From contig PNKH01000057.1 of the NCBI GenBank assembly GCA_013822345.1, positions 1-49,589 on the forward strand: a stretch of 49,589 nucleotides of DNA, written 5' to 3'. The position numbers were made by a program, and so were the translations under genes. The notes under the pieces were generated by a model that was not told the DNA's origin, ran no database searches, and worked only from the letters and a program-made list of their open reading frames with translations. This DNA is from Isosphaera sp. (lineage in GTDB: Bacteria > Planctomycetota > Planctomycetia > Gemmatales > Gemmataceae). Below are positions 3,638 to 40,767 of the stretch, one piece after another. How positions within the stretch are numbered: position 1 is the first letter of the stretch; each line of letters starts with the position of its first letter.

Positions 3638-3793
3638 CACCCCGACCTCGGCCGCAAGGCCGGGGGCCTCGCGCCGTCCCGGGCTTCGGGCGTTCGTGCC
3701 CGCCAGCCGATGTCCGGACCCGGGCGGCCGGGGTTCTCGCGACGAAGTTCACAGGTAGTAGGCCGACGCACGCCCGAACGAGGGGAGCCCAGC

Positions 3794-6037: not shown

Positions 6038-6049
6038 GAGGACAGGGCC

Positions 6050-9000
6050 GTGCTGAACCGCGTCATCGCGTTCTCGCTCCAGAACCGCCTCCTCGTCCTC
6101 ATCGCCGCGGCGGCGGTGACGGCCGCCGGCGTCTACCAACTCGTCCGCACGCCGGTGGACGTGTTCCCGGACCTCAACCGCCCGACCGTGACGGTCATGA
6201 CCGAGGCCCCGGGGCTCGCCCCCGAGGAGGTCGAGGCCCTCGTCACCCGGCCGATCGAGTACCAGGTGAACGGGGCGACCGGGGTGAAGCGCGTCCGCTC
6301 CGCCTCCGGCATCGGGCTCTCCGTCGTGTGGGTCGAGTTCGACTGGGGCACCGACATCTACCGGGACCGGCAGATCGTCTCAGAACGGCTCCAACTCGTC
6401 CGTGAGCGGTTGCCCGAGAGCGTCAACCCGGTCATGGCCCCGATCTCGTCCATCATGGGCGAGGTGATGATCGTCGGCCTCCGGCCCGCGGAGGCGGCGA
6501 AGACCCCGGAGGAAGCTCTGAAGCAGGGGATGGACCTCCGGACGTTCGGCGAGTTCACCGTCCGGAACCGGCTCCTGGCGATCGACGGGGTGTCGCAGGT
6601 GACGGTGATGGGAGGCTACCTCAAGCAGTACCAGGTGGTCACCTCGCCCGAGCGACTGGCCGCCCAGAACGTCACCCTCGAGCAGCTGACCGACGCGGCC
6701 GGGAAGGCGTACGTGCTGGCCGGCGGCGGGGTGATGGAGCGGGGGACGAAGGAGTCCCTCATCCGCATCAGCGCGCAGAGCCTTGCCCCCGAACAGATCG
6801 CCGAGACCCCGGTGGTGTGGCGGGGCGACCGGGCCGTCCGGGTCAAAGACGTGGCGGACGTGCGGCTCGCGGGCCCCGTCCGCCGCGGGGACGGGAGTAC
6901 GCTCGTCAAGGAGGACGGCCGCGTCGCCGGCGGGCCGTCCGTCATCCTCGCCGTCCAGAAGCAGCCCGGGGCCAACACCCTGGACCTCACGCCGAAGCTC
7001 GACGCCGCCCTCGACCAGCTCCAGGCCGACGCCCCGCCCGGCGTCATCATCGAGCGGCGCGTCTTCCGCCAGGGAGACTTCATCGAGACGGCCATCGACA
7101 ACGTGGTGGAAGCCATCCGGGACGGGACCGTCTGGGTGTTCGTCGTCCTCCTCCTGTTCCTTGCGAGCATCCGGACGAGCGTCATCACCTTGACCGCCAT
7201 CCCGCTCTCGATCCTGACCACGGTCCTCGTCTTCAGCTACTTCGGGATCACCATCAACACCATGACCCTCGGCGGGATCGCGGTCGCGGTGGGCGAGCTC
7301 GTCGACGACGCGATCGTCGACGTCGAGAACATTTTCCGAAGGCTCAACGAGAACCGGTCGAAGGCCAACCCCGACCCGGTCCTGAAGGTGGTCTTCCGGG
7401 CGTCGAGCGAGGTCCGGAACTCGATCGTCTACGCGACCCTTATCGTCTGCCTCGTCGTGCTCCCGCTCTTCGCGCTTTCGGGCCTCGAGGGCCGCATGTT
7501 CGCCCCGCTCGGGCTCGCCTACCTCGTGTCGCTCATGGCGTCGCTCCTCGTGTCGCTCACCGTGACCCCGGTCCTCGCGTCGCTCCTCCTCGGCCGGGAC
7601 AAGGTGGCCCGGCCGCACCGGGACGCGCTCCTCCTGCGCGGGCTCAAGTGGCTCGACACCCGGCTCCTGCGCCTCACCCTCCGGTTCCCGCGGCCGGTCC
7701 TGGTCACGTCGCTCGTCCTGTCCGCGGCGACCATGCTCGCCGTGTTCGGGATGGGTTCCGAGTTCCTCCCCCCGTTCAACGAGGGGACGGTGACCGTCAA
7801 CCTCCAGCTCCCGCCCGGGACGAGCCTCGCCGAGAGCGGCCGGGTCGCCGCCCGGGCCGAGCAGACGCTCCTCCAGATCCCCGAGGTCGTGTCCGTCTCG
7901 CGGCGGACCGGGCGGGCCGAGCAGGACGAACACGCCGAGGGCGTGAACGTGTCCGAGGTCGAGGTCCGGCTCACCCCGCACGAGCGGCCGAAGCCGGGAG
8001 CCTGGTACGCGGTGCTGCGTGCGGTCCCGGGCCTCCACGGCTACGGGGTCGAGAGGTCGGGCCGCCCCCACGACCGGGTGCTGGCCGACATCCGGGACAA
8101 GGTGAGCAGCATCCCGAACGTGGCGGCGAACGTCGGGCAGCCCATCAGCCACCGGCTCGACCACGTCATGTCCGGGGTCCGGGCCCAGGTGGCGGTCAAG
8201 GTGTTCGGCCCGGACCTCCAGGAACTCCGGAACGCCGCCCAGGAGATCCAGGACCGGATGGCGACGGTCCCCGGCGTCGTGGACCTCCAGGTCGAGCCGC
8301 AGGTGGAGATCTCGCAGGTGCGGCTCCGGGTGAAGCCGGAGGAGGCGGCCCGGTACGGGCTCGCGCCCGGCGACGTGGCGCGGCTCCTCGAAACCGCGTA
8401 CAAGGGCCGGACCGTGGCGACCGTCCTCGACGCCGAGAAGTACTTCTCGCTCGTCGTCTGGTACGACGAGAGGTCCCGGGCCGACCCGAGGGCCATCGGC
8501 CAGACCATCCTCGACACCCCGTCCGGCAAGAAGGTGTCCCTCGACCAGGTGGCGGAGGTGCTCGACACGACCGGGCCGAACACCCTCAACCACGAGAACG
8601 TCGGCCGGCGGATCGTGGTCTCGTGCAACGTCCAGGGGCGGAGCCTCGGCGACGTGGTGGCCGACATCAAGCGGGCCGTCCGCCCCGTCGAGGAGAAGCT
8701 CCGGGCGAAGGGCGGGGACTACCGGGTCGAGGACGACGGCCAGTACCGGGCGCAGCAGGAGGCGAACACCCGGCTCCTGGTCCTCGGGACGGCGGCCGTC
8801 TTCGGGGTGTTCCTGCTGCTCTGCCGGTGCCTGGGGTCCTGGCGGGCGGCGCTCATGGTGCTCGGGGTGAACATCCCGCTCGCCGGGCTCGGGGCGGTCC
8901 TCGCACTCCTCGTCGTCAACCGCCCGGACGCCGCGGCCCTCCACGCGGTACCGTGGTGGAAGTGGCCCGAGGTCTGGATGCAGGCGACGACGCTGTCCGT

Positions 9001-9559
9001 CGCCCACTGGGTCGGGTTCATCACGCTCATCGGGATCGTGACCCGCAACGGGATCATGATGATCGCCCACTACATCCACCTGATGCGGGAGGAGGGCGAG
9101 CCGTTCGGGAAGGAGATGATCGTTCGCGGGAGCCTGGAGCGGCTGGCCCCGGTACTGATGACGGCGGCGGTCGCGGTCATCGGGCTGGTCCCGCTCGCCC
9201 TCGGGGCCGGGCAGACCGGGAAGGAGATCCTCCACCCCTTGGCCGTCGTCGTGATCGGCGGCCTCGTCACCTCGACCCTCATGGACCAGGTGGTGACCCC
9301 CGCCGTCTTCCTCCTCTTCGGCCGGAAGGTCTACCGACCGGAGGCCGCGCCCGCGGACGGGACGCCCCCAACCGGCTGGGACGACGCCTGGCTCACCGAG
9401 AAGCCGGAACCCCGGCCGCGGCCGGGGCCGGATGAAACGCGAGTCGAGCCGACGCCCACGGCCGCTCGCCCGCCCGCCCCGGCCGAGGGGCCGGGGGTGA
9501 AGGACCGACCCACCCCGGTCGTGGTGACCGGGGGCGATCGTGTTCCGTACGCCGGGTGA
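6050..9559 (+). CDS. Heavy-metal RND efflux permease (HME-RND, CusA/CzcA-like)
   Basis: 1169 aa, initiated at GTG 6050 shortly after the adaptor stop. The N-terminal helix (LNRVIAFSLQNRLLVLIAAA) and TPVDVFPDLNRPTV are typical of the heavy-metal RND family. The proton-relay helix reads GELVDDAIVDVEN near residue 415, with acidic residues at the canonical TM4 place but a different motif from the DFGxxVDGAVVxVEN of classical CzcA. The C-terminal transmembrane half ends with GIVTRNGIMMIAHYIHLM and a Pro-rich cytoplasmic tail of about 70 residues that is longer than usual. It would export metal ions from periplasm or cytoplasm through an outer-membrane channel. No TolC gene is in this operon, so a channel such as those at 39334 or 48351 must serve it. 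Confidence 0.93.
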   Translation: MLNRVIAFSLQNRLLVLIAAAAVTAAGVYQLVRTPVDVFPDLNRPTVTVMTEAPGLAPEEVEALVTRPIEYQVNGATGVKRVRSASGIGLSVVWVEFDWGTDIYRDRQIVSERLQLVRERLPESVNPVMAPISSIMGEVMIVGLRPAEAAKTPEEALKQGMDLRTFGEFTVRNRLLAIDGVSQVTVMGGYLKQYQVVTSPERLAAQNVTLEQLTDAAGKAYVLAGGGVMERGTKESLIRISAQSLAPEQIAETPVVWRGDRAVRVKDVADVRLAGPVRRGDGSTLVKEDGRVAGGPSVILAVQKQPGANTLDLTPKLDAALDQLQADAPPGVIIERRVFRQGDFIETAIDNVVEAIRDGTVWVFVVLLLFLASIRTSVITLTAIPLSILTTVLVFSYFGITINTMTLGGIAVAVGELVDDAIVDVENIFRRLNENRSKANPDPVLKVVFRASSEVRNSIVYATLIVCLVVLPLFALSGLEGRMFAPLGLAYLVSLMASLLVSLTVTPVLASLLLGRDKVARPHRDALLLRGLKWLDTRLLRLTLRFPRPVLVTSLVLSAATMLAVFGMGSEFLPPFNEGTVTVNLQLPPGTSLAESGRVAARAEQTLLQIPEVVSVSRRTGRAEQDEHAEGVNVSEVEVRLTPHERPKPGAWYAVLRAVPGLHGYGVERSGRPHDRVLADIRDKVSSIPNVAANVGQPISHRLDHVMSGVRAQVAVKVFGPDLQELRNAAQEIQDRMATVPGVVDLQVEPQVEISQVRLRVKPEEAARYGLAPGDVARLLETAYKGRTVATVLDAEKYFSLVVWYDERSRADPRAIGQTILDTPSGKKVSLDQVAEVLDTTGPNTLNHENVGRRIVVSCNVQGRSLGDVVADIKRAVRPVEEKLRAKGGDYRVEDDGQYRAQQEANTRLLVLGTAAVFGVFLLLCRCLGSWRAALMVLGVNIPLAGLGAVLALLVVNRPDAAALHAVPWWKWPEVWMQATTLSVAHWVGFITLIGIVTRNGIMMIAHYIHLMREEGEPFGKEMIVRGSLERLAPVLMTAAVAVIGLVPLALGAGQTGKEILHPLAVVVIGGLVTSTLMDQVVTPAVFLLFGRKVYRPEAAPADGTPPTGWDDAWLTEKPEPRPRPGPDETRVEPTPTAARPPAPAEGPGVKDRPTPVVVTGGDRVPYAG

Positions 9560-10992: not shown

Positions 10993-11080
10993 TCCTCGTT
11001 CTCGCGGTGCCGGTGTGGTACACCGCCCCCGAGGGCCCGCGGGAGGCGGTGGCACACGACCGGAGAACGGGAGGAGCGAC

Positions 11081-13456
11081 ATGACACACGATCACCACCA
11101 GACGCCGGAAACCGACCCCGTGTGCGGGATGGCGGTCTCGCCCGCCACCGCCGCCGGATCGGCCGAGTTCCGGGGCGCCCGGTACTACTTCTGTAGCACC
11201 GACTGCCACCACCGGTTCGAGGCCGACCCGGCCCGATTCGTCGGCCCCCCGCCCGCCGGGCACCCGGACGGCGGCGAGCGAGGCTCGCCCGCGTCGGCGG
11301 TCGCGGCCACACCCCCCACACCCCCCGGACCCGCGACCAAGGTCGAGTACTCGTGCCCGATGCACCCGGAGGTGGTGAGCGACCGCCCGGGGAGTTGCCC
11401 GAAGTGCGGGATGGCGCTGGAGCCCCGGACGGTCACGGCCGAGGAGGGGCCGAACCCGGAACTGGACGACATGACCCGCCGGTTCCGGGTCGGGGCGGTC
11501 CTCACCGTCCCGGTCTTCGCCCTCGCCATGGCCGACATGATCCCCGGCCGCCCGCTCCACCACGTCCTCGACATGCGGGCCATGAACTGGGTCCAGCTCC
11601 TCCTCGCGACCCCGGTCGTCGTCTGGGGCGGGTGGCCGTTCTTCGCCCGGGGGTGGGAGTCGGTCCGGAACGTCAGCCCGAACATGTTCACCCTCATCGC
11701 CCTCGGGGTCGGGGCGGCCTACCTCTACAGCCTCGCCGCGACCGTCGCCCCGGGCCTCTTCCCCGAGGGGTTCCGGGCGGCGTCCGGGGCGGTCGAGCCG
11801 TACTTCGACACGGCCGCGGTCGTGACCGTCCTCGTCCTCCTCGGGCAGGTGCTGGAACTCCGCGCCCGGAGCCAGACGGCCGGTGCCGTCCGGCGGCTCC
11901 TGGGCCTCGCCCCGAAGACCGCCCGCGTCGTCCGGGACGACGGGCGGGAGGAAGACGTCCCGGTCGGCCACCTCCGCGTCGGCGACCGGGTCCGGGTCCG
12001 GCCGGGCGAGCGGGTGCCGACCGACGGGACGGTCTTGGAGGGCCGGAGCTCGGTCGACGAGTCGATGGTGTCGGGTGAGCCGATCCCGGTTGAGAAGGAG
12101 CCGGGTGTGAAGGTCGTCGGCGGGACGGTGAACGGGACCGGCGGGCTCCTCGTCCGGGCCGACAAGGTCGGCGGGGACACGCTCCTTGCGCGGATCGTCC
12201 GCATGGTCGGGGACGCCCAGAGGACCCGGGCCCCGGTCGAGCGGCTCGTCAACCGGGTGTCGAAGGTCTTCGTCCCGGCCGTCGTCCTCGTCGCGGCCCT
12301 CGCCTTCGTCGCGTGGGCCCTCTGGGGGACCGAGCCCCGGCTCGCCCACGCGCTCGTGAACGCCGTCGCGGTCCTCATCATCGCCTGCCCGTGCGCCCTC
12401 GGGCTCGCGACCCCGATGTCGATCATGGTCGGGACCGGCCGGGGGGCCGAGGCCGGCGTCCTCATCAAGGACGCCGAGGCCCTCGAGCTCCTCGGGAAGG
12501 CCGACGTGCTGGTGGTGGATAAGACGGGGACCCTGACCGAGGGGAGGCCGCGTCTTGCCCGCGTCCAGCCCGCCGAGGGGTTCGCCGAGAACGAGGTCTT
12601 GCGCCTCGCCGCGAGCCTCGAGCGGGGGAGCGAGCACCCGCTCGCCTCGGCGATTGTCAACGGGGCCCTGGCCCGGGGCCTCACGCTCACCGGCGCGGAC
12701 GACTTCCGCTCGGTCACCGGGAAGGGCGTGCTCGGCACCGTCGGCGGCCGCCGGGTGGCGCTCGGGAACGCGAAACTCCTCAAAGACGAGGGGATCGTCT
12801 GGGAAGAGCTCAAGGCCGAGGAGACGCACCTCCCGAGCGAGGTCCAGACGGTGGTGCTCGTCGCCGTCGACGGCCGGTTCGCGGGGCTCGTGAGCGTCCG
12901 GGACCCCATCCGGGCCTCGACCCCGGAGGCGGTGCGACTGCTTCACGCCGAGGGCCTGCGGGTCATCATGCTCACCGGGGACCGCCGGGGGACGGCCGAT
13001 GCCGTCGGCCGGGAACTCGGGATCGACGAGGTCGTGGCCGAGGTCCTCCCCGAAGAGAAGGAGGCGGTCGTGCGGCGGCTGAAGGGCGAGGGCCACGTCG
13101 TCGCGATGGCGGGCGACGGCGTGAACGACGCCCCGGCCCTGGCCCGGGCCGACGTCGGGATCGCGATGGGCACCGGGACCGACGTCGCGATGGAGTCGGC
13201 CGCGGTGACGCTCGTCAAGGGGGACCTCCGGGGCATCGCCCGCGCGAGACGGCTCAGCCGGGCGACGGTCCGGAACATCCGGCAGAACCTGTTCCTCGCC
13301 TTCGTCTACAACGCGGTCGGCGTCCCGGTCGCGGCCGGCGTCCTTTACCCCATGTTCGGCATCCTCATCACCCCGATCTGGGCGAGCGCGGCGATGAGTT
13401 TGAGCTCGGTGTCGGTCATCGCGAACGCCCTCCGGCTCAGGCGCGCGGCCCTGTAG
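11081..13456 (+). CDS. copA: Copper-translocating P1B-type ATPase with N-terminal YHS and HMBD domains
   Basis: 791 aa from ATG 11081 behind GGGAGGA. Domain order: YHS domain (DPVCGMAV...FCSTDC, residues 9-45), Pro/Ala linker, heavy-metal-binding HMBD (YSCPMHPEV...CPKCGM, about 87-112), first helices, actuator ([10 protein letters not shown]), metal-site helix with CPC near 436, phosphorylation loop DKTGT near 480, SEHPLA His-Pro motif, GDGVND near 678, and the final helix with [15 protein letters not shown]. It lacks the HMA domains of many CopA proteins and instead has the YHS/HMBD front of SilP or CopB-like Cu/Ag exporters. It would pump Cu(I) or Ag(I) out of the cytoplasm. A strong terminator follows, so it probably ends the transcription unit. 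The copA name is by family; a silP-like role is equally possible. Confidence 0.95.
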
Positions 13457-16898: not shown

Positions 16899-17339
16899 TT
16901 GACCATCGGCCAGCTCGCGAGACAGGCCGGCGTCGGGGTCGAGACGATCCGGTTCTACGAGCGGGAGGGGCTGCTCGCGGAGCCGGGCCGGCTCCCGTCC
17001 GGCTACCGCCGGTACCCGCCGGACGCGGTGGAGCGGGTGAGGTTCATCCGCCGGGCCCAGCGGCTCGGGTTCACGCTCAGGGAGTCGAAGGAACTGCTCG
17101 ATCTCCGGGACGACCCGGACGCCGGCCAGGTGGACGCCCGCGAGAGGGCGATCGATAAGCTCGCCGACATCGACGCCCGGATCACGGAGCTTCAGGGGAT
17201 GCGGGCCGAGCTGGGGCTGGTCGCGGTCTGCCGGGGCCGCGAACCCGTGGCCGACTGCCCGATCATCGCCGCGACAGGCGATGCCGCTCCTCACGAGTGT
17301 CCGCCGAAAAAAGCCGCGGAGTCCGGGAGGCGGGCTTGA
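16899..17339 (+). CDS. MerR-family metal-responsive regulator
   Basis: 146 aa initiated at TTG 16899, with CCGGAGGT 8 nt upstream. The N-terminal winged helix (TIGQLARQAGVGVETIRFYE, then SGYRRYPPDAVERVRFIRRA) is typical MerR/CueR/ZntR. It is followed by the long dimerisation helix and a C-terminal metal loop with Cys near residues 110 and 119 (VCRGREPVADCPII). The Cys equivalent to MerR Cys82 appears to be Ala in the VDARERAI segment, so it is probably not a mercury sensor; Cu, Zn, Pb or Cd are possible. Its stop codon overlaps the -35 of a MerR-type promoter that drives the next gene. Confidence 0.92.
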   Translation: MTIGQLARQAGVGVETIRFYEREGLLAEPGRLPSGYRRYPPDAVERVRFIRRAQRLGFTLRESKELLDLRDDPDAGQVDARERAIDKLADIDARITELQGMRAELGLVAVCRGREPVADCPIIAATGDAAPHECPPKKAAESGRRA

Positions 17340-19797: not shown

Positions 19798-20106
19798 ATG
19801 ACATCACGCGAAACGGAATCCGGGCGACGGCAGGTGGAGTTCGTCTGCCACGCCCCAGAAGCCAAGACCGTCTACTTGGCCGGGAGCTTCAACGGGTGGG
19901 ACCCGAACGACACTCCGATGGCCCGTAGTCGCAGCGGGGACTGGAGGGCAACGCTCCCGCTATCGCCGGGCCGCTACGAGTACAAGTTCGTAATCGACGG
20001 CCGGTGGGTGTGCGACGCCGGGTGCTCCGACGCCCCGTCTCACCGGTGCCCGGTCTGCGTCACGAACGCCTTCGGCACCATGAATAAGGTTGTTGAGGTC
20101 GCGTAA
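19798..20106 (+). CDS. Stand-alone CBM48 / AMPK-type glycogen-binding domain protein
   Basis: 102 aa from ATG 19798 (GAGGTG upstream). The whole protein is one early-set/CBM48 domain: VEFVCHAPEAKTVYLAGSFN, GW, then DWRATLPLSPGRYEYKFVIDG and W. These Trp/Lys/Asn positions are those used for glucan binding in AMPK beta and in the N-domain of glycogen-branching enzymes. There is no catalytic domain and no signal peptide. Three Cys in the C-terminal part (CDAGCS, CPVC) are unusual. It may be a glycogen-sensing adaptor; why it sits in a copper region is not evident. Confidence 0.85.
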   Translation: MTSRETESGRRQVEFVCHAPEAKTVYLAGSFNGWDPNDTPMARSRSGDWRATLPLSPGRYEYKFVIDGRWVCDAGCSDAPSHRCPVCVTNAFGTMNKVVEVA

Positions 20107-20292
20107 GCCGACGGCCGCCGCCGGGCTCCGGGTGCTCCCGGTCTTACTCATCGCGGATGCGGATCTGCTCGCCCGTCCGGCGAACCCCCTGGGCCGGTGA
20201 GAGTATGTGTTCCGCTACCCGAACAGCGAGGGCTCGGGGCGGGAAGATGAAGGGTAATGGTGTATTTCGCCGAGAAGGCAAAGGAGAAGCGT

Positions 20293-20661
20293 ATGGAAAG
20301 GGCACGGAGGTTCGTTTGCGTTACGTCCGTTGCGTTGGTGGGGGCGCTCGTGTGCGCCCCGCTCAGGGCAACGGCAGATCAGTCCGGCGTCGGGAAACGA
20401 ATCGAGAAGCTCGAAGAGCGCGTCCGGGACGCGGAGGCGCGGCTCGCGAAGGTCGAGGCGATGGTTGGCCAGCACTCGGCCCATGCCGCGCCCGCCCCCC
20501 AGGCTGGGAAGCCGGGGATGCAGCCGGGGGCTATGGGGCCCGGCATGGGCGGCGGCATGATGGACGACGACATGATGGGCATGCCGGACCCCGCCCCGCA
20601 GGGCCAGACGAACCCGCCCGCCGGAGGGAGCATGGGCGGCGGCATGGGCGGACACATGTAA
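20293..20661 (+). CDS. Exported coiled-coil protein with Met/Gly-rich C-terminus (copper-binding type)
   Basis: 122 aa from ATG 20293 (AGGAGAAG upstream). Signal peptide (about 1-27), a heptad-like coiled coil (IEKLEERVRDAEARLAKVEA), then a Pro/Gly/Met tail with MGPGMGGGMM, DDDMMGM and MGGGMGGHM. Methionine-rich tails of this sort bind Cu(I) in periplasmic copper proteins. It comes just before the CopAB operon, separated by a small membrane protein gene. A trimeric, Lpp-like stalk with a copper tail is a reasonable model. Confidence 0.8.
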   Translation: MERARRFVCVTSVALVGALVCAPLRATADQSGVGKRIEKLEERVRDAEARLAKVEAMVGQHSAHAAPAPQAGKPGMQPGAMGPGMGGGMMDDDMMGMPDPAPQGQTNPPAGGSMGGGMGGHM

Positions 20662-20676
20662 CCAGAGGGAGGGAAC

Positions 20677-20949
20677 ATGACGGGTCACCACGTGCGAATG
20701 CTCATCGGCTGCGCGCTCGTCCTCGGGGCCGTCCTCCTCCTTTCCCGGTTCGGGTACGGGGCGGCGGCGGGCGGCTCACTCGCCTTCGGCCTCCTCATGC
20801 TCGTCTGCTGCGTCGGGCCGATGCTGTTCATGGCCCTCAGAGGGAGGGGAGAAGACGACGGGGGCCGAGGCGAGGAATCGCCGCGCGAGGGGCAGAAGGG
20901 GGACAAGCACGCCGGTCCGAAACCGCGCGGGGGCGGGTCGTGCCATTGA
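20677..20949 (+). CDS. Small membrane protein next to copper genes
   Basis: 90 aa from ATG 20677 with GAGGGAGG upstream. Two predicted membrane helices (MLIGCALVLGAVLLLSRFG and a Cys-containing helix LLMLVCCVGPMLFMAL) are followed by a charged tail ending in GGGSCH. It resembles DUF2933-type small membrane proteins that accompany copper-resistance genes, but that match is from memory and uncertain. It is 15 bp after the Met-rich gene and probably in the same unit. Confidence 0.7.
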   Translation: MTGHHVRMLIGCALVLGAVLLLSRFGYGAAAGGSLAFGLLMLVCCVGPMLFMALRGRGEDDGGRGEESPREGQKGDKHAGPKPRGGGSCH

Positions 20950-21025: not shown

Positions 21026-22810
21026 ATGAGATACGTGACTAGGCGGACGTTTTTGGAAGGCGCAGCGGCGCTCGGGGCGGTCGGAGCGCTCGGACGAGCC
21101 CTGTATCCCGCGGCCGTTGCCGCCGAGGGGAACCGGATTCCGGCGCGGGGAAGCCGGCCGATCGACATCACCATCGACGCCTTCCCCCTCGATCTCGGAG
21201 GGCGGATCGGAAACGCGATGGCGATGAACGGCTCGGTCCCCGGCCCGGTCATCAGGCTCCGGGAGAACACGGAGGCGGTGATCCGGGTGACGAACCGGCT
21301 GCCCGAAACCTCCTCCATCCACTGGCACGGACTCATCCTCCCCCCCGAGATGGACGGGGTGCCCGGGGTGAGCTTCGCCGGCATCCGGCCCGGGGAGACC
21401 TTCGTCTACCGCTTCCCGGTGCGGCAGAGCGGCACCTACTGGTGCCACAGCCATTCGGGCGGCCAGGAGCTCCTTGGGGTGTACGCCCCGCTCGTGATCG
21501 ATCCCGCGGAGCCCGAGCCCTACCGGTACGACCGGGACTACACCGTCCTCCTTTCCGACTGGAGCTTCGAGGCCCCCGCCGAGATCATCGGGCGGCTCAA
21601 GAGCCAGGCCGGCTACTACAACTACCAGAAGCGCACCCTCGGCGATTTCTTCGACGACGTCGCCGACGACGGACTCTCCGCCGCCCTCGGCGATCGGCTG
21701 GAGTGGGGGGCGATGCGGATGGACCCGACGGACATCTCGGACGTCACCGGCAGCACCTACACGTTCCTCCTGAACGGCCTCCCCCCGGACTCGAACTGGA
21801 CCGCGCTCTTCCGCCGGGGCGAGAGGGTGCGTCTCAGGTTCATCGACGGGGCCGCCATGACCTTCTTCGACGTCCGGGTCCCGGGGCTTCGGATGACCCT
21901 CGTCCAGGCGGACGGCCAGAACGTGCAGCCGATCGAGATCGACGAGTTCAGGATCGGACCCGGCGAGACGTACGACGTCATCGTCGAGCCGTCCGGGGAC
22001 GGGGCGTACGCCATCTTCGCCGAGGCAATCGATCGGAGCGGCCACGCGTCGGGAACCCTCGCCTCGAGGGAAGGCATGCGCGCGCCCGTCCCGCCGCGGA
22101 GAAAGCGGCCCTTGAGGACGATGGCCGACATGGGGATGGGGCACGCCGGCATGGAGGGCATGGACACGGACTCCCGTGCCACGGAGCGCGGGGAAGGCGG
22201 CGAATCGGCCGGCCACGGCGGAGCCGCGCACGGGACGGGCGGAGGGGGAACGGAGGCCGACTCCGTCCCGCACGGCCCCGACGATCACGGGATCGGGAAC
22301 TCCGCCGTCCCGGCCGCCACCCGGGGCCGCCTCGACGAGCCGGGGACCGGCCTCGGAGACGACGGGCGGCGGGTGCTCGTCTACGCCGATCTCAAGAGTG
22401 TCGTTCCGGGGGCGGACGGGCGCGAGCCCGGGCGCGAGATCGAGCTCCACATCACGGGGAACATGGAGCGCTACATCTGGGGCTTCGACGGCAAGAAGTA
22501 CTCCGAAGCGCCGGGCCCGATCCCCTTTCGCTACGGGGAGCGGCTGAGACTCACCCTCGTGAACGACACCATGATGGAGCACCCCATTCACCTCCACGGG
22601 ATGTGGATGGAGCTCGAAAACGGGGCCGGGCCGTACAAGCCGAGGAAGCACACCGTGAACGTGAAGCCGGCCGAGCGGGTGTCGGTGGCGATCACGGCCG
22701 ACGCGCCGGGGAGGTGGGCCCTCCACTGCCACCTGCTGCTGCACATGGACATGGGGATGCTCCGGGTCGTCGAGGTGTCGGAAGACGTCCGCGCGGAGGC
22801 GCACGGCTGA
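21026..22810 (+). CDS. copA: CopA/PcoA-type multicopper oxidase (Tat exported)
   Basis: 594 aa. The N-terminus has a twin-arginine motif (RRTFLEG), so it is exported folded. Copper sites are clear: HWHG near residue 97, YWCHSHSGGQ near 135, HPIHLHG near 515, and HCHLLLHMDMGM near 570. A Met-rich stretch (MADMGMGHAGMEGM) near residues 365-380 and a His/Gly-rich linker follow the second domain, as in PcoA where they bind extra Cu(I). It would oxidise Cu(I) to the less toxic Cu(II) in the periplasm. The stop overlaps the copB start (TGATG). The protein is a different family from the P-type ATPase also named copA. Confidence 0.95.
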   Translation: MRYVTRRTFLEGAAALGAVGALGRALYPAAVAAEGNRIPARGSRPIDITIDAFPLDLGGRIGNAMAMNGSVPGPVIRLRENTEAVIRVTNRLPETSSIHWHGLILPPEMDGVPGVSFAGIRPGETFVYRFPVRQSGTYWCHSHSGGQELLGVYAPLVIDPAEPEPYRYDRDYTVLLSDWSFEAPAEIIGRLKSQAGYYNYQKRTLGDFFDDVADDGLSAALGDRLEWGAMRMDPTDISDVTGSTYTFLLNGLPPDSNWTALFRRGERVRLRFIDGAAMTFFDVRVPGLRMTLVQADGQNVQPIEIDEFRIGPGETYDVIVEPSGDGAYAIFAEAIDRSGHASGTLASREGMRAPVPPRRKRPLRTMADMGMGHAGMEGMDTDSRATERGEGGESAGHGGAAHGTGGGGTEADSVPHGPDDHGIGNSAVPAATRGRLDEPGTGLGDDGRRVLVYADLKSVVPGADGREPGREIELHITGNMERYIWGFDGKKYSEAPGPIPFRYGERLRLTLVNDTMMEHPIHLHGMWMELENGAGPYKPRKHTVNVKPAERVSVAITADAPGRWALHCHLLLHMDMGMLRVVEVSEDVRAEAHG

Positions 22811-23619
22811 TGGGCACGTTCGCGGCATCAACGAGGAGCTTCCTGTCCGTGGCGGCGTCCGTTCTCATCGCCACCTCCGGTTCGAGCGCCGAAGGGCGTG
22901 AGCCGGGCGGTACGGAACCCGAGCCCCGAACCTACTCCTCGCTCTCCCCGCAGAAGGGGTGGGCGAGCCCGGTCGCCGACGACGAGACCTTCTCGTTCTT
23001 TCTCGCCGAGCTCCTCGAGTACCGGCTCTCGGAGGATGGCGGAGAGGGGCGGTGGGACACCTACGGCTGGCGGGGCGGCGACTACGACCGGGTTTGGGTG
23101 AAGAGCGAGGGGGACGTCTCGGGGGGCGGAGGACAGGGCGACGTCCAGCTCGTCTACGGGAGACTCGTCTCCCGATTTTTCGATTTCCAGGCGGGGGTCC
23201 GGTACGAGCAACTCTGGGGCGACGGCCCCGACCCGTCGAGGGTCCAGGCCTCGGTCGGGTTCCAGGGGCTCGCCCGCTACTTCTTCGAGGCCGAGCCCAC
23301 GCTGTTCGTGGGCCCCGAGGGGGACGTCTCGGGCCGGTTCACCGGCGGGTACGACCTCTTGCTCACGCAGCGGCTCATCCTCCAGCCCCGGCTCGAGATG
23401 GTGGCCGCCGTTCAGGACCAGGAAAAGTTCGGGATGGGTCGGGGGCTCAACGACATCGACGTCGGCCTCCGGCTCCGGTACGAGCTGCGTCGGGAGTTCG
23501 CCCCGTACGTCGGCGTCAACTTCCGCCAGCAGTACGGCGAAACCGCGAGGTACGCCCGAGACGCCGGGGAGGAGACGCTCCAGTGGGCGTTCGTGGTAGG
23601 AGCGCGCGTATGGTTCTAG
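22810..23619 (+). CDS. copB: CopB/PcoB outer-membrane copper protein
   Basis: 269 aa starting at ATG 22810 inside the copA stop region. Signal peptide, then the CopB family body: DDETFSFFLAELLEYRLSED, DRVWVKSEGDVSGG and alternating beta strands ending in FVVGARVWF, the aromatic C-terminus of an outer-membrane barrel. It lacks the long Met-rich N-terminal region of the Pseudomonas/E. coli proteins. CopB works with CopA in copper sequestration or export across the outer membrane. Confidence 0.93.
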   Translation: MGTFAASTRSFLSVAASVLIATSGSSAEGREPGGTEPEPRTYSSLSPQKGWASPVADDETFSFFLAELLEYRLSEDGGEGRWDTYGWRGGDYDRVWVKSEGDVSGGGGQGDVQLVYGRLVSRFFDFQAGVRYEQLWGDGPDPSRVQASVGFQGLARYFFEAEPTLFVGPEGDVSGRFTGGYDLLLTQRLILQPRLEMVAAVQDQEKFGMGRGLNDIDVGLRLRYELRREFAPYVGVNFRQQYGETARYARDAGEETLQWAFVVGARVWF

Positions 23620-24200
23620 CGAAGTCGCGCGAAGCGGACGGCTGCGGGAGGAAAACTCGAACGGCGAAGCCCTCTCGCACGTGGGCCTTGATCGGGTTGC
23701 TCGTGTCGGCTCACCTCCTCCCGACTCACGCCGCGGGCGAGCCGCCGCCGCTGAGCGACTACGCCGAGCTTGCCGGGGCGGGAGCGGCCCTCACGCGAGC
23801 GATCGAGACCGAGCCTCCGGCCCTGCCGAAGCCCTCCTTGACCCCGACCCGGGGTCGGGTCAACCACCTGTACCACCTCGGTGCCAAGCAGTTCTACCTC
23901 GACAAGGCGAAGGGGCTGGCCCTCACCGACGAGCAGGCGACGAGGCTCCGCCGGCTCTGGGAGTTCGACCAGGAGGAGAAGGCGAGATACCGCGACGCCG
24001 TGACCCGGGCCGAGCGCGAGCTGTGGCGGCTCACCGGCGGCGAGGAACCGTCCCTCCCCGCGATCGAAGCCGCCGTTCGGGCCGTCGAGCGGCTCAAGGC
24101 CGACCGCCGCGTGTCCTTCGTCGGGCGGGTGGCGGAGGCGGCCGCGGTCTTGACCGTGCACCAGCGCGAGATGTTGAGGATGGCCAAGGCGACCCGATGA
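23610..24200 (+). CDS. Spy/CpxP-like periplasmic protein with LTxxQ motifs
   Basis: 196 aa from ATG 23610, overlapping copB by 10 nt. It has a signal peptide or anchor near residues 25-43, then a helical body. Two LTxxQ-type motifs are visible: LTDEQATRLRRL and LTVHQREMLRM, the mark of the Spy/CpxP/CnrX family of periplasmic chaperones and metal sensors. The family binds misfolded proteins or metal (CnrX binds Ni/Co; Spy is induced by copper). Here it is translationally coupled both to copB and, by an ATGA overlap, to the oxidoreductase that follows. Confidence 0.82.
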   Translation: MVLAKSREADGCGRKTRTAKPSRTWALIGLLVSAHLLPTHAAGEPPPLSDYAELAGAGAALTRAIETEPPALPKPSLTPTRGRVNHLYHLGAKQFYLDKAKGLALTDEQATRLRRLWEFDQEEKARYRDAVTRAERELWRLTGGEEPSLPAIEAAVRAVERLKADRRVSFVGRVAEAAAVLTVHQREMLRMAKATR

Positions 24201-25996
24201 CGAACGCGCAGCTCTTTCGACTCTTGTTCTTCTCCCTGACGCTCACGGCCTCCGTCGCCGCGGCGCAGATCTCGCCCGAGGAGCACGCGAGCCACCACCC
24301 CCCTCCCGGCGGGCCGGCGGGTCAGGCCGCCCCGCAGTCGGGGGGGATGGACGCAATGATGGCCGGAATGATGGGGGGAGGCGCGGGCGGCATGATGGCC
24401 GGCATGGGCGCGCCCCCGAAGAAGGAGCTCTACCCGGCCCTGATGTCGCTCCCCGAGTTCTCCCCGGAAGCGAAACAGGAGGTCGAAGTTCAGGGGAACC
24501 GGCGGTTTCGGGAGGGAGCTTTCCTCCTCGCCGCGGGAACCCGAGAACTCTCGGCCGCCCTCGAGCGGGCGGACACGGACCGTCAGGAGCAGAGCCTCCG
24601 TACGCTCCGCGGGGCCCTTTCCCTCATGGAAAGCGGCCTCTCCACCCGGAAGCTCCTCGAACAGGGGAGGCCGCCCAGGGAGGTCGCCCTCGCGTGGTTC
24701 CGGAACGAGATGAACATCGCCGCGGTCGGCCCGATCGGTCCCCATGCGGGCCCGTTCGGCTTCTCGCCCCTCCACCTCCTCACGATGGCGCTTCTGTTCG
24801 CCGGATCCGCGCTCGGGCTCCACGCGTACGTCACGCGGATGAACCGGGCGCGGACGCTCCTCCGGAACCTCACCGCGCCCGGTCTGCCCGGCGCGGGCTC
24901 GCTCGGCAACGCCGTCCCGGCCCCGGAGCCGATCGGTCCGGAGAAGTGGAAGGGGACGCTCAGGCTCACTGAAATCATCGACGAGACGCCCGGAATTAAC
25001 ACCTTCCGGTTCGTCGACGACCGGTCGGGGGCCTCGCCCTTCACGTTCCTCCCGGGCCAGTTCGTGACGCTCGCCGCACCGGTAAACGGGAAGCGGGTGT
25101 CGCGTGCCTACACGATCGCCTCCTCCCCGACCGAGAAGCGGTTCCTCGACCTCACCATCAAGCGGGAGGAAAAGGGGGTCTTCTCGAGGTTCCTCCACGA
25201 CGAGTTCCGGCCCGGGGCGACGCTCGAGGCCGCGGGGCCGCAAGGGGTCTTCACCTTCACGGGGAGCGAGGCGAGCTCCCTCGTGCTCATCGGCGCGGGG
25301 GTCGGGGTTACCCCGCTCATGAGCGTGCTCCGGTACCTCACGGCGACCAAGTGGCCGGGGAACGTCGCCCTCCTGTTCGTCTGCCGCACGCCGGCCGACT
25401 ACCTCTTCCGGAAGGAGCTCGCGGAGACGGCCCGGGCGAATCCCAATTTCCGCCTGCTCGTGACGATGACGAAGGCCGGCGAAAGCGAGTGGGCGGGGCT
25501 CCGCGGCCGCTTCACGAAAGAGATGATCGCCGAACACCTTCCCGTGGTCCGCGAATCGAGAATCCACATCTGCGGCCCGAACCGGATGATGGACGACACG
25601 AAGGCCATGCTGCTGGACCTCGGCGTTCCTCCCGAGGCGATAAAGATCGAGAGCTTCGGCATACCGCGCAAGGAGGAATCTCCCGCGCCGCTCGGGCGGT
25701 CGGAGCAGGGGACGATCGTCTCGACCTCGAACACGGCGCTTTTCAAGCCGTCGAACAAGACCGCCTTCCTGCCGCCGGACCTCACCCTGCTCGAGGCGGC
25801 CGAGTCGGTCGGGGTCGAAATTCAGAACTCCTGCCGGGTGGGGACGTGCGGCCTGTGCAAGGTCCGCCTCCTCTCCGGCCAAGTCTCGATGGATGTCCAA
25901 GACTCCCTCACCGAAGAGGACAAGCAGAAAGGCGTCGTCCTCGCCTGTCAGGCGAAATCGGCGGGCAACGTCGTCGTGGAGGTTCCGCCGGAATGA
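24197..25996 (+). CDS. Met-rich/transmembrane protein fused to FNR-type reductase and 2Fe-2S ferredoxin
   Basis: 599 aa, ATG overlapping the previous stop (ATGA). Order: signal-like helix, His and Met-rich stretch (MDAMMAGMMGG, MMAGMGAP, residues 50-75), a helical periplasmic part, a membrane helix (about 190-213), then a cytoplasmic reductase. The FAD site is RAYTIASSPTEK near 302, the nucleotide site GAGVGVTPLMSVLRYL near 370, and ICGPNRMMDD near 458. The C-terminal plant-type ferredoxin has C-x4-C-x2-C (CRVGTCGLC, about 545-553) and LACQ near 583. It should take electrons from NAD(P)H via FAD to 2Fe-2S. The fusion of a copper-like Met tail with a reductase is unusual. It is followed by membrane heme and heptaheme genes in coupled order. 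Confidence 0.9.
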   Translation: MTNAQLFRLLFFSLTLTASVAAAQISPEEHASHHPPPGGPAGQAAPQSGGMDAMMAGMMGGGAGGMMAGMGAPPKKELYPALMSLPEFSPEAKQEVEVQGNRRFREGAFLLAAGTRELSAALERADTDRQEQSLRTLRGALSLMESGLSTRKLLEQGRPPREVALAWFRNEMNIAAVGPIGPHAGPFGFSPLHLLTMALLFAGSALGLHAYVTRMNRARTLLRNLTAPGLPGAGSLGNAVPAPEPIGPEKWKGTLRLTEIIDETPGINTFRFVDDRSGASPFTFLPGQFVTLAAPVNGKRVSRAYTIASSPTEKRFLDLTIKREEKGVFSRFLHDEFRPGATLEAAGPQGVFTFTGSEASSLVLIGAGVGVTPLMSVLRYLTATKWPGNVALLFVCRTPADYLFRKELAETARANPNFRLLVTMTKAGESEWAGLRGRFTKEMIAEHLPVVRESRIHICGPNRMMDDTKAMLLDLGVPPEAIKIESFGIPRKEESPAPLGRSEQGTIVSTSNTALFKPSNKTAFLPPDLTLLEAAESVGVEIQNSCRVGTCGLCKVRLLSGQVSMDVQDSLTEEDKQKGVVLACQAKSAGNVVVEVPPE

Positions 25997-26670
25997 GAGA
26001 GCACGAAAAGGTCATCGCGTCGGCCCTCCTCCTTCTCCTCCTCGTCGCCTGGTTCGTCTTCCTGGTGCACGAGGACCCGCGGTTCGCCGGCAGCCCCCTC
26101 GGCGGGCTCTTCGGGGTGCTCGGCCTCCTCGTCATGCTCGTCGCGTACCTCTACCCCGCGGTCAAGCGGGTCGCCGGTCTCAGGCGGGCCGTCTCCAAGA
26201 CGATGTCCCTCGGCACCTTCCTTGAGCTCCACGTCTTCGCGGGGATCCTCGGGCCGCTCCTCGGGCTCGTCCACAGCGGGCACAAGTTCGAAAGCCCGAC
26301 CGGCATCGCGCTCACGGCGGTCATGCTCGGCGTCGTCTTTAGCGGCTTCGCCGGCCGCTACCTCTTCGGCGTCGTCTCCGCGGACGTCCGAGAGAAGAAG
26401 GCGATGCTCGCGGCCCTCGAGCAGGAGTACCACCACCTCTCGCTCGAGGTCGCGGGCTCCGCGGGCCGGGGCGGGCTGCTCGCCCGGGTGTCCGGCGTCA
26501 GCGAAGCCATCGCCGACGTCGAGTACGCGCTCGCGACCGACGAGCGGGCGAGGCGGCTCTTCGCCCGGTGGCTCGCCGTTCACATCGCGCTCTCCCTCGC
26601 CCTGCTCGCCCTACTCGGGCTGCACGTCTTTTCGAGCTTCTACTACGGGGTCCGATGGCTTGGAGGGTAG
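25993..26670 (+). CDS. Membrane protein with two H-x13-H helices (ferric-reductase-like bis-heme b)
   Basis: 225 aa, ATG overlapping the previous stop (ATGA). It has about five membrane helices. Helix 3 has HVFAGILGPLLGLVH (His-x13-His, plus SGH) and the last helix has HIALSLALLALLGLH (His-x13-His). Two such pairs on two helices are the signature of the ferric reductase/NADPH oxidase transmembrane domain, which carries two b hemes stacked across the membrane. There is no flavin domain in this chain; the upstream gene supplies it. A cytoplasmic loop carries a charged helical part (residues 135-170). The heme assignment is inferred from spacing and context. Confidence 0.82.
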   Translation: MREHEKVIASALLLLLLVAWFVFLVHEDPRFAGSPLGGLFGVLGLLVMLVAYLYPAVKRVAGLRRAVSKTMSLGTFLELHVFAGILGPLLGLVHSGHKFESPTGIALTAVMLGVVFSGFAGRYLFGVVSADVREKKAMLAALEQEYHHLSLEVAGSAGRGGLLARVSGVSEAIADVEYALATDERARRLFARWLAVHIALSLALLALLGLHVFSSFYYGVRWLGG

Positions 26671-27392
26671 CCCGCACGCTCGTCGTCCTTCTCGTCTGCG
26701 CTCCCGCCGCGCTCGCGCCCCACGGCGCGAGGGGGGAGGACGAGGCGGGTCCACTCTCCCGGTTTCTCGCGTTCATGACCGATCCGGGCGAGCTCTCGCG
26801 GGCCCACGAAGCCGTCGGCGGGAACTGCTCGGCCTGCCACACGGCGTTCAAGGGCCAGGAGCCCGCCAAGTGCATCGCCTGCCACGCGAACGAGTCGATG
26901 CTGCTCGCGCGGCAGCCGACCGCCTTCCACGCCTCCATCGACCGGTGCGGCGGCTGCCACATGGAACACCAGGGGAGGAACGTCCGGCCCACCGAGATGA
27001 GTCACCTCGCGCTCGCGGCCGCTCTCGCCCGGGACGGCATCTCTCTCGGTGCCACGCTCCACGGGAAACCGGAGGCGGAGCTCGAACAGAGCCTCGACTG
27101 TAACCGGTGTCACGCGAACCAGGACCCGCACCGGGAGCAGTTCGGGACGGGGTGTGCCGACTGCCACACGACGGCGCGGTGGCAGGTCGAGGGCTACCGC
27201 CACCCGTCGCCGGAATCCCGGGACTGCGCCCAGTGCCACGTCGCCCCGCCGAGCCACTACATGATGCACTTCGAGATGGTCTCGGAGAAGACGGTCGGGC
27301 TCGAGCACGTCGAGGTCAGGAGCTGCTACCTGTGCCACGAGACGACGGCCTGGAACGACATCCGGGGCGTGGGGTGGTACAAGCACCATTGA
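26655..27392 (+). CDS. Periplasmic heptaheme cytochrome c
   Basis: 245 aa from ATG 26655, overlapping the membrane gene by 16 nt. Signal peptide about 1-27, then seven CXXCH motifs: CSACH, CIACH, CGGCH, CNRCH, CADCH, CAQCH and CYLCH. Extra His residues (HMEHQ, HPSP, HYMMHF) could be distal ligands, as in c3/NrfH-like multiheme proteins. It is the last gene of the coupled copper operon and would accept electrons from the bis-heme membrane protein. The acceptor could be Cu(II), the multicopper oxidase or an extracellular oxidant; the sequence does not decide. Confidence 0.93.
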   Translation: MAWRVARTLVVLLVCAPAALAPHGARGEDEAGPLSRFLAFMTDPGELSRAHEAVGGNCSACHTAFKGQEPAKCIACHANESMLLARQPTAFHASIDRCGGCHMEHQGRNVRPTEMSHLALAAALARDGISLGATLHGKPEAELEQSLDCNRCHANQDPHREQFGTGCADCHTTARWQVEGYRHPSPESRDCAQCHVAPPSHYMMHFEMVSEKTVGLEHVEVRSCYLCHETTAWNDIRGVGWYKHH

Positions 27393-27538: not shown

Positions 27539-28564
27539 TCACAGTCCGACCTTGGCCGCCGCGTTCTCGCGGAACAGGCTGCCGTCCCGGATGTACCGCC
27601 TCATGACGGCGAGCGACTTGTGCCCGCTCTGGTCCATGATCGCCCGCTCGCTCACCCCGGCCATCGCCGCCTGGGTGATGAGCCCGGCCCGCAGGCTGTG
27701 CCCGGCGTACCGGCGGGCGGTCCGGCCGGCGGCTAGCAAACTTCTCTTAACGACCTCAGCCACTGCCCGGTCACTGAGCCGCCGGGCGGAGACGTGCCCG
27801 TGCCGGCTGACCGCCCGGAAGAGGGGGCCATCGATCACCCCCGAGCGGTCGAGCCACGCCTGGACCGCCCGCACCGGGCAGGTGGCGGGGTTCTTCCCGA
27901 GCGGGATGCCGAGCTTGCGGCCCGACCCCTCCTGGTCCGTCTTGCCCTTTCGGATTACGACCACGAGCCCCTCGTCGGCCGTTGCCACGTCGGTGACATC
28001 GAGCCCGACGATCTCGCTCCGGCGCATGGCCCCGGCGAACCCGAGGAGGATGAGCGCCCGGTCGCGGGCACCGAGGAGCGTGTCGGGGAGGTGGGCGACC
28101 ATCTCCCGGATGTGCCTGGTGAGGGCGGGCTTCATGTGCGCCCGGGCTGTGCCCTTCTCGCGGCGGATGCCCGACCAGACGAGGCGGACCTGGGCGTGCG
28201 TGTTCGGCGACTCGAACCCGGCCGCGCGGTGGGCCTCGGCGATGGTCGCGAGCCGACGCCCCAGGGTGCTCGTCTTTAAGTCCTGGGACCGGTCGGCGAG
28301 GTAGTAGGCGACGGTGTCGGGGGCGGCGGGCAGAGGCGACCGGCCGTACTTCTCGCACCACCGCTCGAAGTCCGCCCAGTCGGATCGGTACGCCCGGCGG
28401 GTGTTTGCGGCCTTCGAGTTCTCGACGTACTCGGCCGCCGTCTCACCGATGTGTTCGAGCCGGGCCGCGTGGTGCGCGGCCCCTGTCGGGGCGGGCGGCG
28501 GGGGCGGGGTGTCGTCTGGGCCGGGCACTGTCGTAAGGTTAGTTGATTCCCGGCACGATACCAC
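27539..28564 (-). CDS. Tyrosine recombinase / phage-type integrase
   Basis: About 341 aa, start uncertain (GTG 28564; an in-frame GTG about 12 codons later is possible). The N-terminal SAM-like DNA-binding domain (AANTRRAYRSDWADFERWCE) is followed by the catalytic domain: Arg in GAMRRSEIVGLD, Lys in RKGKTD, H-S-L-R-A-G, G-H-K-S and the nucleophile Tyr in VMRRYIRDG. All catalytic residues are present, so it may be active. It is close to Xer/integrase proteins of mobile islands. It points toward the copper operon end (27392) with 146 bp between them and may mark one end of a transferred block. I found no obvious att repeats. Confidence 0.93.
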   Translation of the reverse strand: MVSCRESTNLTTVPGPDDTPPPPPAPTGAAHHAARLEHIGETAAEYVENSKAANTRRAYRSDWADFERWCEKYGRSPLPAAPDTVAYYLADRSQDLKTSTLGRRLATIAEAHRAAGFESPNTHAQVRLVWSGIRREKGTARAHMKPALTRHIREMVAHLPDTLLGARDRALILLGFAGAMRRSEIVGLDVTDVATADEGLVVVIRKGKTDQEGSGRKLGIPLGKNPATCPVRAVQAWLDRSGVIDGPLFRAVSRHGHVSARRLSDRAVAEVVKRSLLAAGRTARRYAGHSLRAGLITQAAMAGVSERAIMDQSGHKSLAVMRRYIRDGSLFRENAAAKVGL

Positions 28565-38285: not shown

Positions 38286-38300
38286 ACTGTTGCCGTCTTC

Positions 38301-39314: not shown

Positions 39315-39333
39315 CTTCCTTCTCCCGAATTCC

Positions 39334-40659: not shown

Positions 40660-40767
40660 AGGCTGCGAACTCCGAGAACTGGTTGCGAGGGCGCGCCAAT
40701 ACGCTTGGCCGCGGGACTGCGACAGCACGGGCTCGGCTGCCCGCTGCTCAATCTGGGGCCGTGAGGA

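Follow-up and report, generated by a model that had tools for sequence, protein, structure and literature searches.

Why would a bacterial copper-resistance operon end in genes that look made for electron transfer? The question is raised by a stretch of 49,589 nucleotides from Isosphaera sp. (Planctomycetota; GenBank assembly GCA_013822345.1, contig PNKH01000057.1), called the window here, in which copA, copB, and a Spy-like gene are followed by genes for a fusion reductase, a membrane protein with paired transmembrane histidines, and a heptaheme c-type cytochrome. We refer to the last three genes as the triad. A preliminary description of the window had proposed that they carry electrons from NAD(P)H to the periplasm as part of a copper operon. 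We found that the triad is a free-standing three-gene module that is widespread and also borne on plasmids. As a working model, we suggest that it is an inner-membrane NAD(P)H-to-periplasm electron-export unit, most likely reducing Cu(II), a reading that we hold tentatively and rate slightly short of an even chance.

Recurrence of the triad

The six genes from copA to the cytochrome all lie on the forward strand and overlap at every junction (Table 1). The overlaps are 1 base between copA and copB, 10 between copB and the Spy-like gene, 4 between the Spy-like gene and the fusion, 4 between the fusion and the membrane protein, and 16 between the membrane protein and the cytochrome. The coordinates bear out the overlapping string of the preliminary description. 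At its head, the copA product matches three Cu-oxidase Pfam profiles far over their cut-offs and the TAT_signal profile slightly below its cut-off. By their profile matches, CopA and CopB of the window are ordinary members of their families.

We scanned the contigs of GTDB species with the cytochrome and obtained 415 related stretches. Locus counts given below out of 80 refer to the best 80 of these 415, which include Planctomycetota, Pseudomonadota, Verrucomicrobiota, Acidobacteriota, Bacteroidota, Elusimicrobiota, Chloroflexota, and Binatota. All three genes were present in 79 of the 80 loci, and we therefore rejected the idea of a one-off fusion or an assembly oddity. The exception was a Gimesia contig (L067) without the fusion and membrane protein at the place where a close relative (L123) has both. 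The two loci have identical cytochrome rows in the tree and 98-99% DNA identity around them, and the loss of the genes appears to be either a deletion or a misassembly. Where all three genes were found as open reading frames (ORFs), they lay on one strand (90/90 loci). The order fusion, membrane protein, cytochrome was returned by script for 88 of these 90 loci; in L038 and L105, where another ORF had been selected by the script, the order read from the ORF lists is identical.

Searches of plasmid sequences returned the membrane protein in 52 records and the cytochrome in 52 records, 26 of them predicted to be conjugative. It is these records, not the tree, that suggest mobility. In a cytochrome tree built with a quick method, rows grouped mostly by phylum with few exceptions, and the window row sat on a long branch without a firm place. 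A search of viral contigs gave no match. In genomes of the phylum, weak relatives of the membrane protein and the cytochrome also stand side by side with no match to the fusion (L009, L010, L013, L015, L016, L020, L028, and L029), and such pairs perhaps belong to a broader superfamily in which b-type proteins are paired with multiheme c-type ones.

Table 1. Genes of the copper string and of the surrounding island, with coordinates in the window
Feature	Coordinates	Strand	Matches and remarks
copA/pcoA	21026..22810	+	Multicopper oxidase of copper resistance, Tat-type start; TIGR01480 817 bits (cut-off 479)
copB	22810..23619	+	Copper resistance protein B; PF05275 248 bits (cut-off 27)
Spy/ZraP/CnrX-like secreted helical protein	23610..24200	+	Stretch NHLYHLGA; PF13801 weak
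Fusion reductase, 599 aa	24197..25996	+	FAD_binding_6, NAD_binding_1, Fer2 over Pfam cut-off
Five-transmembrane diheme-b-type membrane protein (predicted), 225 aa	25993..26670	+	Two H-x13-H; long helical cytoplasmic hairpin
Secreted heptaheme c-type cytochrome (predicted), 245 aa	26655..27392	+	PF14537 33.1 bits (cut-off 25), PF14522 27.2 bits (cut-off 24.8)
CusB/HlyD-like adaptor and RND pump	3710..9559	+	PF16576, PF00873
P-type ATPase with YHS and heavy-metal-binding (HMBD) domains	11015..13456	+	
MerR-family regulator	16899..17339	+	PF13411, PF09278, PF00376; ends 3.7 kb before copA
Small AMPK1_CBM/CBM48 glycogen-binding-like protein	19798-20106		Pfam on window copy
Two small reading frames ahead of copA	20257..20949	+	One Met-rich and secreted, one membrane
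Tyrosine recombinase	27539..28564	-	PF00589 63.7 bits; next gene after the cytochrome
Second RND efflux system (pump, adaptor, outer-membrane factor)	35034-40728	-	

Predicted redox proteins of the triad

The fusion starts with a signal peptide and a periplasmic HxxHH motif (HASHH in the window) with a Met-rich tail, followed by a helical domain and one transmembrane (TM) segment (about residues 190-213). Behind the TM segment lie an FAD/NAD(P) reductase (about 250-488) and a plant-type [2Fe-2S] ferredoxin domain (about 515-597); these modules had been named in the preliminary description, and their three profiles all score over cut-off. In 40 aligned fusions, picked for clean starts and including the Alteromonas and Glaciecola copies, H30, H33, H34, M67, and H193 are invariant. 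The HxxHH motif was found in 88 of the 88 loci, window included, that hold this end of the fusion; outside this set, L087, L088, L097, L101, and L102 are cut at the contig end, and L067 and L122 are without the fusion. Between HxxHH and the helical domain, the number of Met residues ranged from 3 to 13 in all 70 cases measured. The invariant residues suggest that a putative NAD(P)H reductase binds metal on its periplasmic side.

Close solved relatives of the reductase part are phthalate dioxygenase reductase (2pia; 303 residues aligned, Z 27.2, root-mean-square deviation [rmsd] 4.3) and NqrF, and the NCBIfam HCR and PaaE models match the fusion below their cut-offs. Like phthalate dioxygenase reductase, HCR, and PaaE, the fusion has FAD, NAD(P), and plant-type [2Fe-2S] domains in the same order. 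Unlike them, it adds the N-terminal secreted His/Met tail, the helical domain, and the TM segment. A structure model of the fusion had a mean predicted local distance difference test score (pLDDT) of 77.7, with tail residues 33-74 under 50. Homology between the periplasmic helical domain and the neighboring Spy-like protein found no support (hhalign probability 3.3).

That Spy-like protein matches Metal_resist (PF13801) weakly, at 19.0 bits and below the cut-off of 29.2. A Variovorax gene at the same place reaches 27.3 bits and is annotated "periplasmic heavy metal sensor." Spy-like relatives were found by tblastn anywhere in 33/80 loci, another Spy type in 16/80, and either of them in 49/80. 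By profile, a Spy-like gene lies at most 3 kb upstream of the fusion in 27/93 loci, a count that missed the window itself, where the ORF was over-extended.

In the membrane protein, H26, H80, H94, H97, H197, and H211 are invariant across 63 aligned rows. The two H-x13-H helices noticed earlier in the window protein (H80-x13-H94 and H197-x13-H211) recur in its relatives, with at least two such pairs in each of the 92 membrane proteins found as ORFs. The inside loop at residues 56-73 averages 4.6 Lys plus Arg over the 63 rows, compared with 1.0-1.3 in three outside loops. These charges support a predicted topology of five TM segments, with the N terminus inside and both His helices running from inside to outside. 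The predicted structure is all-helical with a long hairpin (pLDDT 91.7).

The membrane protein of the window has no Pfam or NCBIfam profile over cut-off, and neither Ferric_reduct (PF01794) nor PepSY_TM is listed for it at E ≤ 1. Among 49 aligned members at E ≤ 0.01, DUF4405 matched 15 (the window protein not among them), Ni_hydr_CYTB (cytochrome b561) one, PF01794 one (E 0.0054), and PepSY_TM none. Foldseek with the model gave no match at E ≤ 0.001 (best E 0.13). VIA-align 2 returned cytochrome b6 (2e74_A; Z 9.0, 135 aligned, rmsd 4.7) in a list dominated by coiled coils that match the cytoplasmic hairpin, so that the fold comparison was not informative. Planctomycetota loci L059, L066, L075, and L076 encode a long C-terminal extension on this protein; in L066 it is DUF547 (PF04784, E 1.6e-17), and the other three look similar by eye.

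The cytochrome is the most uniform of the three. Seven CXXCH motifs, as reported for the window protein in the preliminary description, and a final His were found in 94 of 94 relatives examined; the window copy ends in HH. The sequence PPSHxMxHFxM follows the sixth heme motif in 93/94. With its c3/c7 Pfam profiles (PF14537 and PF14522) over cut-off and its repeated CXXCH, the protein belongs with the class III/c7 multiheme cytochromes, and the Alteromonas copy also matches an MtrC/MtrF domain profile. We infer heme content from the sequence motifs, for the cytochrome as for the membrane protein. The Isosphaera genome has a second heptaheme cytochrome of the same family (L122, 4686-5432, minus strand), truncated by the edge of a 5.5-kb contig (C190). 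It is followed by genes for a rhodanese-YgaP protein, glucose-6-phosphate dehydrogenase (G6PDH), a hemerythrin-like protein (by eye), and DUF1622 (tblastn), and no copper reference matched this contig.

Copper genes, hydrogenases, and the proposed electron path

Is the triad tied to copper? CopA relatives, counted at E ≤ 1e-5 within 10 kb of the triad, occurred in 31/80 loci, where about 1.2 were expected. For the 29 loci with a searched background, the count was 17, where 0.48 was expected. The background density (139 high-scoring segment pairs [HSPs] per 163 Mb in 29 genomes, with rounded genome sizes) tallies HSPs instead of genes, and the chance expectation is therefore overstated; the 29 genomes were chosen without a fixed rule and are richer in CopA (17/29) than the whole set (31/80). 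The gene order that the preliminary description proposed to seek in other genomes, in which copA-copB precede the triad and all lie on one strand, was found again in six of the 80 loci from five genomes (L056, L070, L071, L094, L113, and L121). L094 and L113 come from one metagenome-assembled genome, and the set spans alphaproteobacteria, Elusimicrobiota, and Verrucomicrobiota. Given the 31 loci with CopA relatives, homologs of the triad do not always stand away from copper genes, which the preliminary description had named as the contrary outcome. At least one of CopA, a multicopper oxidase (MCO), CopB, a Cu-type ATPase, and the four-helix copper protein Csp was present in 55/80 loci; this broader tally was made without a background and includes P-type ATPases, which are common genes. 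Among 21 annotated plasmid regions, chosen to cover different organisms, 10 have a copper gene named in the stretch on our reading of the annotation; in one more, L035, tblastn detected a partial CopB.

Other neighbors are not copper genes. On plasmids of Alteromonas macleodii and Glaciecola, [NiFe]-hydrogenase genes come directly after the triad. In the hydrogenase operon of the A. macleodii "Deep ecotype," orf1 and cyt are accessory genes that Weyman and colleagues found unnecessary for HynSL activity in Escherichia coli, according to the accessible parts of two accounts (PMC3102683 and PMC4307346), and by gene order they would be the membrane protein and heptaheme cytochrome of the triad family (L128). 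The same parts of these accounts do not mention the upstream reductase or the family. Hydrogenase genes follow the cytochrome in A. macleodii, whereas the next gene in the window is the recombinase on the opposite strand. Between the A. macleodii cytochrome and hydrogenase genes lies "orf2" (L128:10703-11926), for which we found no Pfam match; a porin and a monoheme-type cytochrome are encoded upstream of the Alteromonas triad. In Salinimonas, the sole annotated hydrogenase gene in the stretch is hypE, and MerR, a heavy-metal ATPase, a cupredoxin, and DUF2933 come after it. Two reports also place hydrogenase and copper genes together on an island or plasmid of A. macleodii (PMC8478169 and PMC4781885, as far as these sources were available). 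Because of the Salinimonas arrangement and these shared islands and plasmids, we regard hydrogenase as one possible partner and not as part of the core. Elsewhere, a glutamate dehydrogenase-like gene lies directly upstream on the same strand in L075, L076, L082, L095, and L123 (Pfam on L076), and in 11 Legionella loci (L081, L084, L085, L091, L103, L108, L109, L111, L115, L116, and L120) the triad is closely preceded, on its own strand, by ATP-synthase-like genes.

Several of these results weigh against a copper role. No copper marker was found in 25/80 loci (15 on stretches of <19 kb and ten on stretches of >19 kb), and no Spy-like match in 31/80. The hydrogenase neighbors and the second cytochrome copy, which sits beside G6PDH and not beside copper genes, point the same way. 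The 80 loci are not independent, with 11 from Legionella and some sharing a genome. Across 294 genomes of the phylum, we found the cytochrome in 7 (E ≤ 1e-30), CopB in 6, and both only in the window genome, which leaves a phylum-wide link to CopB unsupported. CueR-like operators in the window were not above chance (4 matches with ≤3 mismatches, 2.8 expected). The enrichment could moreover reflect multi-metal mobile islands, as our counts cover copper markers. Finally, CopA-type oxidases are thought to oxidize Cu(I), so that an adjacent Cu(II) reductase would be counterproductive unless the Cu(I) is captured. Taken together, the copper link of the preliminary description holds as an enrichment near CopA and fails as an invention of copper operons; a module confined to such operons was rejected in view of the hydrogenase loci and the loci without copper markers.

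How, then, might the three proteins work? The reductase family of the fusion draws on NAD(P)H, and two His pairs on paired helices can place two b hemes across a membrane. The fusion would oxidize cytoplasmic NAD(P)H via FAD, and its [2Fe-2S] domain would hand electrons to the membrane protein, where H80 and H197 may hold a b heme near the cytoplasm and H94 and H211 one near the periplasm. The heptaheme cytochrome would collect the electrons outside. The HxxHH motif and Met tail of the fusion, with the Spy-like partner where present, probably bind copper, and because of these two features copper is the best candidate for acceptor or trigger. In the window, the triad would most likely use NAD(P)H to reduce Cu(II) of the periplasm to Cu(I); this would be a plausible gain, since Met-rich binders and Cu(I) pumps act on that form. 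The potential of Cu(II)/Cu(I) is far above that of NAD(P)H, so outward flow to copper would be downhill; with H2 as donor, inward flow is possible. NAD(P)H-linked dehydrogenases near some loci (glutamate dehydrogenase-like in five, G6PDH beside the second cytochrome copy) count in favor of the electron-export model.

Our confidence differs among the parts of this model. Its basis lies in domains, gene order, invariant ligands, predicted topology, and copper-gene enrichment; from these we infer which way the electrons flow, that the proteins form a complex, what the acceptor is, and that copper is bound and induces the genes. The electron chain itself is likely: a path from NAD(P)H through FAD/2Fe-2S, two b hemes, and seven c hemes fits the protein families and invariant residues, and the chain of the preliminary description stands in this respect, although it is not confined to copper operons. 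We lean toward outward electron flow in metal stress. Cu(II) as the main acceptor is a tentative assignment, with the balance somewhat against it. A still fuller version, in which the triad is a widespread, partly plasmid-borne, NAD(P)H-driven heme-based cupric reductase that controls the redox state of copper in the periplasm, and the His/Met tail of a metal-sensing reductase gates or feeds a wire of b hemes and the heptaheme cytochrome, seems doubtful. Accounts of copper resistance usually center on export, sequestration, and oxidation. If the model is true, the triad adds a new arm, active reduction, and ties metal tolerance to central metabolism via NAD(P)H. Genes of several phyla and of plasmids that now carry the label "hypothetical," "iron reductase," or "cytochrome c3 family" would also gain a role that can be tested.

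Comparison with known systems places the triad among variants of transmembrane NAD(P)H-to-periplasm reductase chains. The string in the window resembles Cop/Pco operons at its head, where a CopA-type oxidase is followed by CopB, and we know of no Cop/Pco operon with an NAD(P)H reductase, a b-type cytochrome, or a heptaheme cytochrome. In ferric reductases and NADPH oxidases (FRD/NOX), electrons from an FAD/NAD(P)H module reach the outside by way of two b hemes, stacked between helices with paired His. The triad is like them in having two pairs of transmembrane His (H80/H94 and H197/H211), a likeness of residues only. FRD/NOX fuse the FAD/NAD(P)H domain behind the heme domain, whereas the reductase of the triad is a separate gene with its own TM segment and an added Fer2 domain; the triad further adds a heptaheme cytochrome, and its membrane protein falls outside PF01794. 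The triad thus appears to work like an FRD/NOX chain without being a member by profile or architecture. CcoG, as described in the available part of its account (PMC7558416), is likewise a membrane protein that reduces Cu(II), the role proposed here; it works through two tetranuclear Fe-S clusters, with a donor yet to be named. By contrast, the triad has FAD/2Fe-2S and predicted b-type and c-type heme sites, and no tetranuclear Fe-S domain was among the Pfam matches of the three proteins or the NCBIfam matches listed (25 of 29 for the fusion). PepSY_TM reductases such as CrpH (PMC13038864, available in part) resemble the triad as inner-membrane systems that carry heme-binding motifs and have been connected with the reduction of iron or copper; the PepSY_TM domain was not matched in our membrane protein or the 49 members. 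In the open-access literature, with subscription journals outside our scope, we found no paper recognizable to us as an account of the triad in copper resistance.

Could the triad instead be a general periplasmic redox hub, linking the NAD(P)H pool to whichever periplasmic enzyme travels with it, with copper genes as frequent island passengers and inward flow from H2/HynSL in Alteromonas? The hydrogenase genes directly downstream in A. macleodii and Glaciecola, the otherwise variable neighbors, the loci without copper markers, and the G6PDH and rhodanese beside the second cytochrome copy would all be explained. Yet the His/Met tail is kept in every locus that holds that end of the fusion and in all 40 aligned rows, those of Alteromonas and Glaciecola included, and both the Salinimonas stretch and the copper genes on A. 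macleodii hydrogenase islands and plasmids speak against it; we consider a hub unlikely. A narrower proposal makes the cytochrome reduce the type-1 copper of CopA, with electrons ending on O2 and serving detoxification or a reset of CopA. It draws on copA standing in the same operon in the window and preceding the triad, in the same orientation, in six loci, and on CopA or MCO relatives in 36/80 loci; the remaining 44/80 have no CopA or MCO match, so CopA is unlikely to be a general partner, and the proposal as a whole is quite improbable.

The acceptor might also be another toxic ion or oxidant of stress islands, such as silver, gold, mercury, chromate, tellurite, peroxide, or, as with MsrPQ, oxidized proteins of the periplasm. 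The idea would suit the location of loci in heavy-metal islands, which have RND pumps (17/80 loci) and P-type ATPases, as well as the two RND systems of the window island and the response of Spy/ZraP-like proteins to envelope stress in known systems; we give it a low probability. Least probable is that the triad forms the inner-membrane start of extracellular electron transfer, passing electrons onward to an outer-membrane conduit. The porin and monoheme-type cytochrome upstream in Alteromonas, the c3/c7-type heptaheme protein, and the MtrC/MtrF match of its Alteromonas copy are in line with such a route, but no outer-membrane cytochrome conduit was found among the window proteins scanned, which represent part of the reading frames.

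Surroundings of the operon in the window

The string is embedded in an island of further metal genes (Table 1). From its sequence, the MerR-family gene is a candidate metal regulator of the island. A search for inverted repeats before copA gave nothing interpretable. The two small reading frames ahead of copA have no Pfam match over cut-off and perhaps mark the start of the operon. Upstream of them lies the gene for the small glycogen-binding-like protein, which recurs upstream of the fusion in 11 loci.

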